Shown here piece by piece: positions 13,264 through 57,557 of a DNA stretch of 64,000 nucleotides. Positions within the stretch are counted from its first letter, which is position 1. Each line of letters starts with the position of its first letter. The DNA comes from an uncultured Synergistales bacterium. Its GTDB lineage: Bacteria > Synergistota > Synergistia > Synergistales > Aminobacteriaceae. The DNA is taken from NCBI GenBank assembly GCA_905235735.1, contig CAJOMU010000008.1, forward strand, positions 1-64,000, read 5' to 3'. Below the pieces are notes generated by a model. That model had not been told where the DNA came from, made no database searches, and worked only from the letters and a program-made list of their open reading frames with translations. Position numbers and translations under genes: made by a program.

Positions 13264-13293
13264 TATCAATCCTTATCAATCCTTATCAATCCT
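13264..13293. repeat. Three perfect tandem copies of a 10-base unit carrying a Shine-Dalgarno sequence
   Basis: Three copies of TATCAATCCT on the plus strand, read as AGGATTGATA on the coding strand. The truB stop codon TGA lies in the first copy transcribed. The last AGGA is about 10 bases before the ribF ATG. Each copy holds both an AGGA ribosome site and a TGA. Confidence 0.9.
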
Positions 13294-14164
13294 TCGGAAC
13301 AATAACGGCAGGACAGATATATTCGCCTCCGCCTGCATAAGAACCGAAACCAAGAAAATCATCGCCCTCAACGCATACATAATCATTGAGTTCTGTTATG
13401 CCTTCTGAAGTGTATTCTGCATGACGCGACAGCACAGCCATTCCGTTGATGAAAGTCTTTGAGTCTCTTGGTGAAAGATGTATGCGCGGGAAATTCTTTG
13501 CGAGTTCATAGAGACTTACGAGATTATATTCATCATCATTGGGAGCATTTGCATCTTCAAGATAGAATCTTCCGAGTGATATTCTCTCAAGTGATTTAAC
13601 ATATGCACCGCACCCGAACATAACACCTAAATCATGTGCAAGGCTTCTTATGTATGTTCCTCTTCCGCATGATACTTCAAGTTCAATGCTGCCTTCATCA
13701 TTCAATGGACTAATCACGCGTATGCTCCTGAAGTACACAGGACGTGCATCAATCTTCACATCTACACCTGAACGTGCGAGTTTATGTGCTGGCTTTCCGT
13801 CAATTTTGATTGCAGATACGGCAGGAGGACACTGAAGACGAATTCCCGAAAAAGAGAATAGAGCATCATTCAATGTCCTCATGTTCAGATTTGCGGTTGA
13901 TGATTCACGAATCACATTGCCGGAATAATCGTATGTATCTGTCTCTGTTCCGAACTGAATCACTGTGCGGTAAACTTTCGGAAGGGACATTACGAACTCA
14001 CATAATCTTGTAGCATTACCTGCGAGAAGAATTAGCAATCCTGACGCAGTAGAATCGAGTGTACCGGCATGACCGACTTTTACACCGAGTTTCTTTTTAG
14101 CAATGCTGACACATTTGGTGCTTCGCAGACCTACTGGCTTATTTATCAGGACAAGTGCATTCAT
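13286..14164 (-). CDS. truB: tRNA pseudouridine(55) synthase TruB
   Basis: 292 residues. It isomerises U55 in the T-loop of tRNAs. It has the family start INKPVGLRSTKCV, the catalytic GHAGTLDSTASGLL (Asp), the YRTVIQFGTETDTYDYSGNV segment and CGRGTYIRSLAHDLG. The start overlaps the end of nrnA by 26 bases, and the C-terminal PUA-like part is short. Its stop codon is inside the tandem repeat that precedes ribF. The rbfA-nrnA-truB-ribF order is widely conserved. Confidence 0.93.
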   Translation of the reverse strand: MNALVLINKPVGLRSTKCVSIAKKKLGVKVGHAGTLDSTASGLLILLAGNATRLCEFVMSLPKVYRTVIQFGTETDTYDYSGNVIRESSTANLNMRTLNDALFSFSGIRLQCPPAVSAIKIDGKPAHKLARSGVDVKIDARPVYFRSIRVISPLNDEGSIELEVSCGRGTYIRSLAHDLGVMFGCGAYVKSLERISLGRFYLEDANAPNDDEYNLVSLYELAKNFPRIHLSPRDSKTFINGMAVLSRHAEYTSEGITELNDYVCVEGDDFLGFGSYAGGGEYICPAVIVPKD

Positions 14165-33755: not shown

Positions 33756-33761
33756 TGTGCG

Positions 33762-33790
33762 ATTATACACAATCATTACTTTTATGTCAA
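33762..33790 (-). promoter_or_regulatory. glgB: Consensus sigma-70 promoter facing glgB
   Basis: TTGACA (33785-33790) and TATAAT (33762-33767) on the minus strand are exactly 17 bases apart, both perfect matches. Start of transcription is expected near 33755. Confidence 0.8.
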
Positions 33791-33884
33791 TCTCCTTTGC
33801 AAATGAAATTTTAAAACTTAAATGCATTATAGCATTTGAAGGGTGAGCTTTGAAATCGCAAGTCATTTTCAAAAATTTTTAGAG

Positions 33885-35802: not shown

Positions 35803-37118
35803 TTATCATAGGCTTCTGCAATCTTAAAGGCGGAGTAGGAAAGACTACGGCATGTCAGAATATAGCAGCTGCACTTGCAAAGATGGGAAAACGAATTGCA
35901 GTTGTAGATATGGATCCTCAAAGCAATTTGAGCGCGGGTTTCGGTTTGAATCTTTCGCCTGAAGACCCGCAGGTTTTTGATCTTCTCACAAAACGAGCAT
36001 CATGGGATGATATTGTTCAGACGAAAGAAGATGTTGATGTAATTCCAAGCTCATTAAGTCTCGTAATGGCAGAACTGAATCAAGAAGGCCCTCTGAGCAG
36101 CGATAAAGTTCTTCATGAGGCATTGAGCAGAATTGATCCTGAACGTTACGATTATATTTTTCTTGACAGTCCTCCTCAACTGGGAATGTTCACGCGTAAT
36201 GTTTTAGGTGCATGCAACAAGATAATTGTCCCTATGGACGGAGGGTTCTATAGTCTTGTGGGATTGCGACTTCTGAGCAGTGCACTTCCTGTTCTCCGTG
36301 AAAGACTGAATAACTCTCTTGAGATTGCCGGTATCCTGATGACGAATTATAATCCGAGACTGTCTATATCGCGTGAAGTTCATGAAGAAGTCAGGAAGAC
36401 ATTCGGAGATGCTCTGTTCGAGAGCTGGATACGTCCGAACGTGAGCATAGTTGAAGCGTCGAGCATGGGAATATCAATCCTGAAGCATTCACCGAAGTCC
36501 AAAGGATCACAATGCTACAATGAAGTTGCGGAAGAGTTCCTGAAGAAGATGAATGATGAGCCAGGCACGACATCAGAGAGTGTTCGAGTATCTGAACCAG
36601 AACCAGAAGAGATTATTGAACTTCCCGATGATGACGTGAACATAGCGAGTGATTCAGAGATGCTCAATGAGGTATCTGAATCTAAACGCAAACCTGAACC
36701 TCAACCTGAGCCTGAACCTGAACCCAAACCTGAGCCTCAAACTCAACCTGAACCGATAGCAGTAACACTCGTCGAAGTAAAACATGAACCCCAACCTGGC
36801 CCTAAGCCTAAACCAAAACCTACAACAGGAGCATACGAAGAAGGAATCAAACGGGACATAATAGACATGCTTCCTGAAAGTGATAAAACTGTGTGGCGTA
36901 ACATGCTTGCACCCATAAGCGACATTACTCGCGGTGAGATTGATATTCATGAACTCCGTGATGATTTTGAAGCATGTGATAAGGACAGATTCACGTTCTA
37001 TGTTTTCAACGATGAATACAATACTCTATGGCCTGTCATGTATCCGGATCAGATTATAGAGCCGTTGAAATGCGTCGTTAAATGGGATGAAGAGGGAGCA
37101 GCTGAAGTGTTTATGTGA
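35799..37118 (+). CDS. ParA/Soj-like ATPase with C-terminal extension
   Basis: 439 residues. The first 250 form a ParA-type ATPase: CNLKGGVGKTTACQNIAAAL (deviant Walker A), VVDMDPQSNLSAGFG, FLDSPPQLG and VPMDGGFYSLVGL. A Pro/Glu-rich linker follows (about 265-345, PEPEPEPKPEPQ), then a compact C-terminal domain of about 90 residues (DMLPESDKTVWRNMLAPISD ... CVVKWDEEG) that I do not recognise. No parB or parS is visible, so this is an orphan ParA that probably positions a protein or complex, not the chromosome. It is translationally coupled to the TPR gene. Confidence 0.82.
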   Translation: MIIIGFCNLKGGVGKTTACQNIAAALAKMGKRIAVVDMDPQSNLSAGFGLNLSPEDPQVFDLLTKRASWDDIVQTKEDVDVIPSSLSLVMAELNQEGPLSSDKVLHEALSRIDPERYDYIFLDSPPQLGMFTRNVLGACNKIIVPMDGGFYSLVGLRLLSSALPVLRERLNNSLEIAGILMTNYNPRLSISREVHEEVRKTFGDALFESWIRPNVSIVEASSMGISILKHSPKSKGSQCYNEVAEEFLKKMNDEPGTTSESVRVSEPEPEEIIELPDDDVNIASDSEMLNEVSESKRKPEPQPEPEPEPKPEPQTQPEPIAVTLVEVKHEPQPGPKPKPKPTTGAYEEGIKRDIIDMLPESDKTVWRNMLAPISDITRGEIDIHELRDDFEACDKDRFTFYVFNDEYNTLWPVMYPDQIIEPLKCVVKWDEEGAAEVFM

Positions 37119-46053: not shown

Positions 46054-46962
46054 TTATCCATTGCGCCATGCACTGCCCATTTTATGAAGCGTTTTTCTTA
46101 TCACTCTGTTTAACCAGCTCTTCTTCTTTTGTCCTGGTACTTTCCCATCATCATAATAGTTCCTGATACCAAGTTCGTCCTCCTGAACAGCGAGACAATA
46201 ACGTGCAGGATGAGATAATGTGAACGTTAAATCGATTCGTAGGGGATTATAGAGATTCTCTGAGGTTGCTGGAGAAATAAACTTATCATCAGTTAAATCA
46301 CTCCTCACAAAGAATGCATTTACTCCTCTTAGATTAGTACCGACAAGCTGATACCCCAAATCATGCCCAAGAAGTTCAAATGCCTTCAGTGATGCACCAT
46401 GCCAGTCTGAACCTTCCCATATATGTTTTGAGTTATAAGCCATCTTCCAATTTAAATCAGGCGGAAACTTCCCGTTGTACTCAATCACAACTACACGAGG
46501 CTTCACAGCATTAATTGCCTGCCAAACGTAATAATCATTGCCGTCAATATCTATTGAGAGCAAATCAATCTCTCCTGTGAAATTTTCGCTTACGAATAAT
46601 TCGTTGATGTTATCGCGTGTGATGAATGCGTTTTTGACTTTTAGCTGACCGCTTTTGATTACTGGCCTGAACCTGCCATAAATTTCTTTCACGTATGCTC
46701 CTGAACCTTCAATCCATAAGCCTGACCAGCCCTTGAGAAGCAAATAATGCGAATTACTTTCGAGTCCGTTTTGAACTCCAAACTCTATGAAGCGTTTATC
46801 CGTTGTGCCTATGCGCCTGAATATTTCCTGAATGATTCCGTCTTCGTCATTCTGTGAGTACACCTTGAACCCGTAACGCTCAAGACATTTTTCATCATTG
46901 AAACGCTTTCTAGTCAGTTCCTCCCAGCATAATCCTCCGCAGATACTTCCCTGAAAGCGCAC
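46054..46962 (-). CDS. FkbM-like methyltransferase/glycan gene, start at a repeat tract (possibly phase-variable)
   Basis: 302 residues as drawn from GTG 46962. The protein carries a SAM-methyltransferase-like core (DKRFIEFGVQNGLESNSHYL, a motif I variant, and IDLLSIDIDGNDYYVW), with RVVVIEYNGKFPPDLNW after it. This type is found in glycan-modification loci. The GTG has no ribosome site. A better start, ATG 47033 or ATG 47064 with AAAGGGG between them, lies upstream of the TGTCG tract. With the present tract it is out of frame by two bases; one unit fewer or two more would join them. In the gene's own frame a TGA sits directly before the repeats. The gene is therefore probably OFF in this DNA. 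Confidence 0.75.
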   Translation of the reverse strand: MRFQGSICGGLCWEELTRKRFNDEKCLERYGFKVYSQNDEDGIIQEIFRRIGTTDKRFIEFGVQNGLESNSHYLLLKGWSGLWIEGSGAYVKEIYGRFRPVIKSGQLKVKNAFITRDNINELFVSENFTGEIDLLSIDIDGNDYYVWQAINAVKPRVVVIEYNGKFPPDLNWKMAYNSKHIWEGSDWHGASLKAFELLGHDLGYQLVGTNLRGVNAFFVRSDLTDDKFISPATSENLYNPLRIDLTFTLSHPARYCLAVQEDELGIRNYYDDGKVPGQKKKSWLNRVIRKTLHKMGSAWRNG

Positions 46963-46968
46963 AATAGG

Positions 46969-47012
46969 TGTCGTGTCGTGTCGTGTCGTGTCGTGTCGTG
47001 TCGTGTCGTGTC
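46969..47012. repeat. Pentanucleotide tandem repeat, 8.8 copies of TGTCG
   Basis: A perfect tract of the unit TGTCG (CGACA on the coding strand) lies at the 5' end of the FkbM-like gene. In the ON frame it would code for a repeating Asp-Thr-Thr-Arg-His. A unit of five changes the frame with each gain or loss. Confidence 0.97.
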
Positions 47013-47013
47013 A

Positions 47014-47042
47014 ATTGTGGAATCGAAATCCATTTTTGTCAA
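47014..47042 (-). promoter_or_regulatory. Promoter-like leader before the pentamer tract
   Basis: TTGACA (47037-47042), 17 bases, then CACAAT (47014-47019) on the minus strand, directly followed by TGA and the repeat. The same arrangement occurs at 56803-56831. Confidence 0.5.
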
Positions 47043-56712: not shown

Positions 56713-56742
56713 ATTCCCCTCGTTTAATGCGGGGGGATTTTT
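56713..56742 (+). terminator. Terminator of the TRAP-dehydrogenase operon
   Basis: ATTCCCC pairs with GGGGGAT over a 16-base loop, followed by five T. Confidence 0.8.
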
Positions 56743-56768
56743 GGTGCATAAATCAGACACAGGAATGA

Positions 56769-56774
56769 TATAAT
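56769..56774 (+). promoter_or_regulatory. Extended -10 promoter upstream of the repeat-switch methyltransferase
   Basis: TGATATAAT, an extended -10, about 44 bases before ATG 56818. It would give a transcript that includes this ATG and the repeat tract. Confidence 0.5.
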
Positions 56775-56802
56775 AAATAATAAAAAAATACGTAGAAAGG
56801 TG

Positions 56803-56831
56803 TTGACAAAAACTAAAATGGCGACCATAAT
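56803..56831 (+). promoter_or_regulatory. Promoter-like leader before the heptamer tract
   Basis: TTGACA (56803-56808), 17 bases, then CATAAT (56826-56831), directly followed by TGA and the repeat. It has the same layout as 47014-47042. AAAGG lies just before it. Confidence 0.5.
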
Positions 56832-57557
56832 TGAACCACGAACCACGAACCACGAACCACGAACCACGAACCACGCTTATCCATTTATCGAAAAATTAGA
56901 CGTTTTATAGGCAGAAATTTTGTTTTCCCTATTCTTGCTCCCAAAAGTAAATCACAGTTTCTTTGGCATCTACCGAAGAATGCAAAACTTCTCGATGTAG
57001 GGTGCGGAAATCATTCTCCTGAAGCTACGAAGTCTCTTCGTCCAGATGTCTATTATGTTGGAATTGATGTAGGAGATTACAACACAACTGAAAAATCGAA
57101 AAGTCTTGCGGATAAATACATCATAACTGACGGCGAAAAATTTGCGGATACAATAAGAGAATTGCCAGATGAATTTGATGCGGCAATTTCACATCACAAT
57201 CTTGAACACTGCAATCACCCAATGGAAACACTTGATGCAATTTGCAGCCGACTCAAAAAGGGCGGAATGTTGTATCTTGCTTTTCCGAGTGAAAGAAGCG
57301 TTACGTTTCCCAGCAGAAAAGGTACACTGAATTTCTATGATGATGGCACACACATATATCTTCCTGACTTCAAGGCAGTCATGAAACGATTAATCAGGAC
57401 TAACGGAATGAGTGTTGATTTTGTTGCTGAATCATACAGGCCATTTTTACCAAGTCTAATCGGCATGTTTCAGAAACATATAATCAAAGACAGAGCGACA
57501 TATTATATCTGGTGCTATTATGGATTCGTAACGATAATAACTGCGCACAAGAAATAA
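56818..57557 (+). CDS. SAM-dependent methyltransferase, out of frame at its repeat tract (phase OFF)
   Basis: The body of the gene reads open from the repeat to 57557: RLSIYRKIRRFIGRNF, KLLDVGCGNHSP (SAM motif I), VGIDVGDYN, AISHHNLEHCNHP, and KKGGMLYLAFPSER. It is a class I methyltransferase of the type found in polysaccharide gene sets. That frame has no usual start codon before TTG 57162, which would delete the SAM-binding motif, and a TGA at 56832 blocks it upstream. ATG 56818 reads into the GAACCAC tract, but with six copies it is in the wrong frame and stops at 56905-56907. Seven copies, or four, would join it to the body and give about 248 residues. The gene is therefore OFF here. Confidence 0.8.
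56833..56874. repeat. Heptanucleotide tandem repeat, six copies of GAACCAC
   Basis: Six perfect copies at the 5' end of a methyltransferase gene. In the ON frame they would code for a repeat of Glu-Pro-Arg-Thr-Thr-Asn-His. Each change of one unit alters the frame. Confidence 0.97.

Follow-up and report, generated by a model that had tools for sequence, protein, structure and literature searches.

What does it mean that an intact methyltransferase body lies out of frame with its start codon, behind a perfect heptamer repeat? The question is raised by one locus in the window (the whole stretch of DNA analysed, 64,000 nucleotides), and our reading is that the methyltransferase is a phase-variable (contingency) gene, a member of a genus-wide family of switches. 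We give this reading a probability of roughly 85%, variation within a population not having been shown.

Reading frames at the heptamer tract

The six copies of GAACCAC that the first-pass annotation had placed between ATG 56818 and an intact methyltransferase were recovered by direct inspection, TRF and Pfam (Table 1). The tract encodes a stop-free EPRTTNH cycle in all three forward frames. Translation from the ATG gave the peptide MATIIEPRTTNHEPRTTNHAYPFIEKLDVL and ended at the stop previously located. The body frame is blocked by a TGA at 56832-56834 and is thereafter open up to the TAA at 57555-57557; as the annotation had also stated, no ATG, GTG or TTG was found in this frame before the glycine-rich SAM motif LLDVGCGN. 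Modulo the repeat, the ATG and the body frame are 17 nt apart, so that one more copy (seven) or two fewer (four) restores the register, as proposed earlier. A perfect short tandem repeat with a unit not divisible by three therefore lies between start codon and body, and a change of copy number alone rejoins the two. At six copies, a figure that represents the assembly consensus and not a population count, the gene is OFF, the start frame ending at 56907 without reaching the body.

The choice of ATG 56818 as the start stood only in part. GTG 56800 and TTG 56803 are in the same frame and nearer to the Shine-Dalgarno (SD) core, which is separated from the ATG by a long gap of 17 nt; the exact start codon among the three is thus uncertain, but the OFF call is independent of it since all of them share one frame.

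The scanned body (227 aa, 56874-57554) matched the Pfam models Methyltransf_23 (E = 1.4e-10) and Methyltransf_11 (E = 1.1e-7), with the methyltransferase domain over the cut-off (PF13489, 41.6 bits vs 27; PF08241, 32.8 bits vs 21.2), and the class I methyltransferase fold predicted for it is clear from these matches. A scan of genome contigs yielded only distant methyltransferases. The gene is flanked on one side by a convergent gene and on the other by a dehydrogenase gene whose terminator sets the module off as its own transcription unit, and it stands alone between them. Its neighbours are a TRAP transporter, the dehydrogenase and a lipase-like protein, with no glycan genes among them; the earlier label "surface-glycan-type" is supported by the genes under other modules, but not by the methyltransferase itself or its surroundings. 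An ortholog was detected in one of the 36 other genus genomes searched (G036, locus L010), where a C10 tract occupies the equivalent site, between a TTG preceded by AAGGAG and an intact, out-of-frame body. The presence of unrelated slippery tracts at equivalent positions in the two orthologous genes points to selection for switching and speaks against decay.

Table 1. Coordinates of the methyltransferase locus and of the other modules in the window.
Feature	Position	Strand	Basis
Relic module: SD, TTGACA-17-TATAAT, ATG in spacer, single unit GCACATCG, conserved post-repeat motif	33761-33798	-	
Second module: P2 TTGACA 47042-47037 / CACAAT 47019-47014, ATG 47033-47031, (GACAC)9 46968-47012	46968-47042	-	
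Intrinsic terminator of upstream dehydrogenase gene	56715-56737	+	Terminator scan
P1, extended -10 element TGATATAAT, inferred to drive the translated transcript	56766-56774	+	Exact TGnTATAAT upstream of module
Shine-Dalgarno core AAAGG	56796-56800	+	SD core 5-6 nt before -35 in 47/57 modules
P2 -35 box TTGACA; the TTG within it could also serve as start, in frame with ATG 56818	56803-56808	+	Consensus match
ATG start codon, within P2 spacer	56818-56820	+	Direct reading and translation
P2 -10 box CATAAT, 17 bp from -35, ends 1 bp before repeat	56826-56831	+	Consensus match
Slippery tract (GAACCAC)6 + G	56833-56875	+	TRF, 6.1 copies, 100% match
Class I SAM-dependent methyltransferase body, out of start frame	56876-57557	+	Pfam; ortholog L010 61% identical
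Stop closing the OFF-frame peptide	56905-56907	+	Translation

A near-consensus promoter over the start codon, and dispersal of the module in the genus

The first-pass annotation did not mention that a promoter, here named P2, covers the start codon and borders directly on the repeat, nor that the same module occurs throughout the genus. P2 has the sigma-70 form (TTGACA-17-CATAAT, 11 of 12 consensus matches, with spacings of 16-18 bp accepted), and ordinary promoters of the genus share its hexamers and spacing, indicating a normal promoter form placed over a translation start. P2 is in all likelihood a genuine component of the device, although transcription from it is only inferred; such transcripts would be without a start codon, leaving P2 without an obvious role in expression. 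The exact P1 sequence was present in 23 of 55 modules, vs 0.5 expected in shuffles, mostly 25-35 bp upstream of the -35 box (55-57 non-redundant modules), and the start codon lay between the -35 and -10 boxes in all 69 repeat-bearing modules with SD and P2.

BLAST searches with the leader gave matches in many members of the genus, followed by varied repeat units (GAACCAC, GACAA, ACACAGC, GACCA, TTACGGC, GTCAA, GCACATC and others), each directly after TTGACA or TAGACA, a 16/17 bp spacer and YATAAT. A search pattern composed of SD and promoter only, and hence blind to repeats, matched 50 sites in 19 of 43 genus genomes, vs one for the reversed pattern used as control, and most of the 50 then carried a repeat of varied unit. 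In 140 other genomes of the order the pattern had five matches, none of them followed by a repeat. None of the viral contigs searched carries a module, and searches of the literature yielded nothing on the module or on Synergistes/Synergistota phase variation.

An unbiased array census was performed on sampled stretches (exact arrays of 5-, 7- or 8-bp units, at least 3 copies and at least 18 bp). All the arrays in 464 kb of the source genome (G000, n = 7/7) abut such a promoter, as do all those of G031 with the upstream flank present (n = 10/10). The chance of such a promoter at one array is about 0.002, and the shared promoter-like leader of all seven G000 arrays indicates that the tract is more than a chance occurrence. 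Promoter-abutting arrays were found in 1/2 cases in G010 and 0/5 in G020, revealing that not every species of the genus uses them. The heptamer arrays of G020 are of another kind (TAGGAGG, AGTTAGG), apparently intergenic and without a promoter (L140:7715, L142:17326, L147:9068 and L147:18446). Poly-G/C tracts of 12-16 were also noted in genus genomes (L081:3116, L119:5574, L123:5871, L128:15382 and L157:18862); several lie between long open frames, and they are candidate switches without an abutting promoter.

Near-consensus promoters numbered 44 in the whole of G000 (reversed control, 8), and in 26 of them an SD stood no more than 12 nt before the -35 box: 24 are followed by an intact array and two by a decayed one, among the latter the relic in the window. 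Arrays followed none of the 18 promoters without SD, three matches of 1.8-2.2 copies of 4-6-bp words being scored as none. Modules within one genome are partly copies and therefore not independent, so that the quoted probabilities are too small.

Among non-redundant modules the P2 spacing was 17 (n = 42), 16 (n = 11) or 18 (n = 4), the units were of 7, 5 or 8 bp, and the distance from the end of P2 to the repeat was -2 to +2 bp in 57/57, across differing units, spacers and start codons. Among the sampled arrays abutting P2 there were none with 3- or 6-bp units. The -10 box is read in two codon phases, TAT-AAT or x(T/C)-ATA-AT; the third, which would read a TAA stop, was seen in 3/69 (p = 5e-9, too small since modules are partly related). 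All the units were free of forward stops (55/55, vs 84% for random units). The ON frame was found in 7/23 direct and 4/25 leader-type modules; a random register would give one third, and these fractions are close to that or lower.

Two forms of the module were distinguished. In form (a), as at the methyltransferase, the repeat is fused to the ORF of an enzyme: glycosyltransferases, methyltransferases, pyruvyl and sugar-phosphate transferases, a UDP-sugar dehydrogenase, an acyltransferase and Stealth. In form (b) it is carried by a short leader ORF, which ends in frame at a stop that overlaps the gene start, often as ATGA, or is next to it, the stops of the other two frames being typically about 20 nt or less from the repeat; some of these leaders hold a strong intrinsic terminator. 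Overall, the family controls mostly cell-surface sugar enzymes, in many species of the genus.

Four other interpretations of module parts were discarded. A spurious ATG with P2 as sole promoter was ruled out by the SD always upstream of P2, the enrichment of P1 and the avoidance of the stop-creating -10 phase; conservation of the -10 box as peptide, by the use of two codon phases; and helical-phase tuning of the promoter, by the absence of 6- and 9-bp units at P2. The likeness of post-repeat sequences to a protein motif (NYxLL) is better read as paired out-of-frame stops just past the repeat, the count of such stops being biased by the choice of the longest frame.

The second module in the window also has a 17 bp spacing with the ATG within it, and it controls an ORF ending at 46057 that is out of frame, and thus OFF, in the assembly; this 304-aa ORF had no Pfam or NCBIfam match. 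The relic lies about 270 bp upstream of a gene resembling glycogen branching enzyme. Elsewhere in G000 (C17:22867-23015, L014) a leader 98% identical over 89 bp, followed by a GAACCAC repeat, precedes an FkbM-type methyltransferase, with the repeat interrupted by an assembly N gap. Degenerate hexamer arrays (GAACCT/AACCTG, 1697-1880 and 36690-36754) are not frame switches because their unit is divisible by three. A perfect 10-bp repeat (TATCAATCCT, 3.1 copies, 13264-13294) has no abutting promoter.

Length change, proposed mechanism and alternatives

L031 and L137 share 94% identity across 419 aligned bases, the main difference being two GTCAA units, and L133 and L158, 88% identical, differ mainly by two CAAGCCA units; in L105/L094 and L116/L121, pairs of related genes, the unit at one and the same site is not identical. 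Of nine contig ends sampled in G031, six fall inside such repeats. These comparisons are between species or assemblies, not within one population, and copy-number differences between relatives were seen at other module loci, the only ortholog of the methyltransferase having a different tract, C10. Change of repeat length is accordingly demonstrated, from the sequences compared, between species only. The earlier claim of a slipped-strand frame switch, and not decay, is supported by the C10 tract of the ortholog and by the second leader with repeat in the genome, and is also backed by unit lengths that can only shift the frame and by the two locus pairs that differ mainly by two units. Slipped-strand frame switching is the best reading of the tract and is well supported; the frames, the module, its dispersal, the unit lengths not divisible by three and the copy differences between species are all established at the level of the DNA.

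Modules share the order P1, SD, -35 box, start codon, -10 box, repeat, and body or coupled leader ORF. In the mechanism proposed, P1 would transcribe an mRNA containing SD, start codon, heptamer tract and methyltransferase body, and replication slippage would add or remove 7-bp units, so that one third of the lengths would join start and body (ON) and the others would stop early (OFF). That a P1 transcript is translated is an inference, drawn from the presence of P1 and the SD and from the avoidance of the stop phase; in vivo slippage and surface-glycan methylation are likewise inferences. P2 most likely starts untranslated transcripts in the repeat or makes the polymerase dwell, and may raise the slippage rate; its role remains open among transcription-assisted slippage, a sigma-dependent pause and inheritance with the copied module.

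It is possible, and proposed only tentatively, that P2 is a dedicated mutability element, whose open complex, abortive initiation and untranslated transcripts would keep the repeat single-stranded and raise slippage. The constant distance from P2 to the repeat despite varied unit, spacer and start codon, the repeats at 26/26 SD-preceded promoters vs 0/18 ordinary ones, the lack of P2 at the easily slipping homopolymer tracts of the same genomes, and the different units at one site in related genes all speak for it; however, data on mutation rates are lacking, shared ancestry of the modules would equally produce the adjacency, and a strong P2 would compete with P1. A fuller version, on which we are rather doubtful, is that the genus has a dedicated modular hypermutation device, where transcription from P2 inside the repeat would produce untranslated RNA and open DNA that speed slippage, P1 and the start codon across the same bases would read out ON or OFF, and new units would arise there repeatedly. 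That P2 is no promoter in the cell, but a sigma-dependent pause for the P1 polymerase that allows ribosome loading ahead of repeat transcription, seems unlikely. The enrichment of P1, the position of the -10 box some 45 nt into its transcript and the overlap of SD and start with P2 speak for it, but a pause needs no -35 box at a strict 16-18 spacing, and the same hexamers are the promoters of ordinary genus genes.

Regarding the methyltransferase itself, an assembly error in copy number, with the gene simply ON, is quite improbable, for while repeats break or blur short-read assemblies, as the N gap at the sister locus attests, the tract is perfect, its 43 bp fit in one read, and most other genus modules are out of frame too. 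A decaying pseudogene with an incidental repeat can be practically dismissed. The gene is indeed out of frame in the assembly and absent from most relatives, but apart from this its body is uninterrupted, with scores above or close to cut-off for several methyltransferase models of Pfam; the ortholog likewise has an intact body following a slippery tract, and the leader is conserved over many genes.

Relation to known switches and significance

The tetranucleotide contingency loci lic, lex2A and mod of Haemophilus influenzae likewise have a repeat whose unit length is not a multiple of three, placed close to the 5' end of an ORF of the surface-sugar or methyltransferase type, and the frame sets ON or OFF (PMC2651432); the genus modules differ in their 5, 7 or 8 bp units and in the near-consensus promoter that overlaps the start and abuts the repeat. 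At hmw1A/hmw2A of the same species a 7-bp repeat is also near surface-gene promoters (PMC2651432, citing Dawid 1999) but sits outside the ORF, some 100 bp upstream, and tunes the expression level, whereas the methyltransferase repeat is in the ORF and shifts the frame. The poly-G/C phasome of Campylobacter is comparable as a genome-wide set of repeat-switched genes; it differs in being built on homopolymers, with no promoter coupling described in the portion of the source available (PMC6321876).

In Streptococcus gallolyticus pil1/pil3, GCAGA repeats in a leader ORF decide by their frame whether ribosomes reach and disrupt a terminator (PMC3894217), an arrangement that matches form (b). The methyltransferase, its repeat fused to the enzyme ORF, lacks the separate leader ORF before an intrinsic terminator, an arrangement met at about 10 of 22 leader-type loci elsewhere in the genus. 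Leader ORFs with repeats reaching into or through strong intrinsic terminators before the main gene were observed at L052, L055, L060, L067, L133, L134 and L158, which are candidate pil1-type attenuation switches. The S. gallolyticus system has a single mapped promoter upstream of the leader ORF and two pilus loci (PMC3894217), in contrast to the dozens of loci and many enzyme types of the genus.

These results add a poorly explored group to the bacteria with repeat-switched surface variation; a single 2.1-Mb genome has at least 26 modules. The module pattern can be used to list the switchable genes of a genome from sequence alone. In G000 the position of hypermutable repeats is tied, almost without exception, to a promoter, so that an old question, whether local transcription governs how fast contingency loci mutate, can be put to a direct test.
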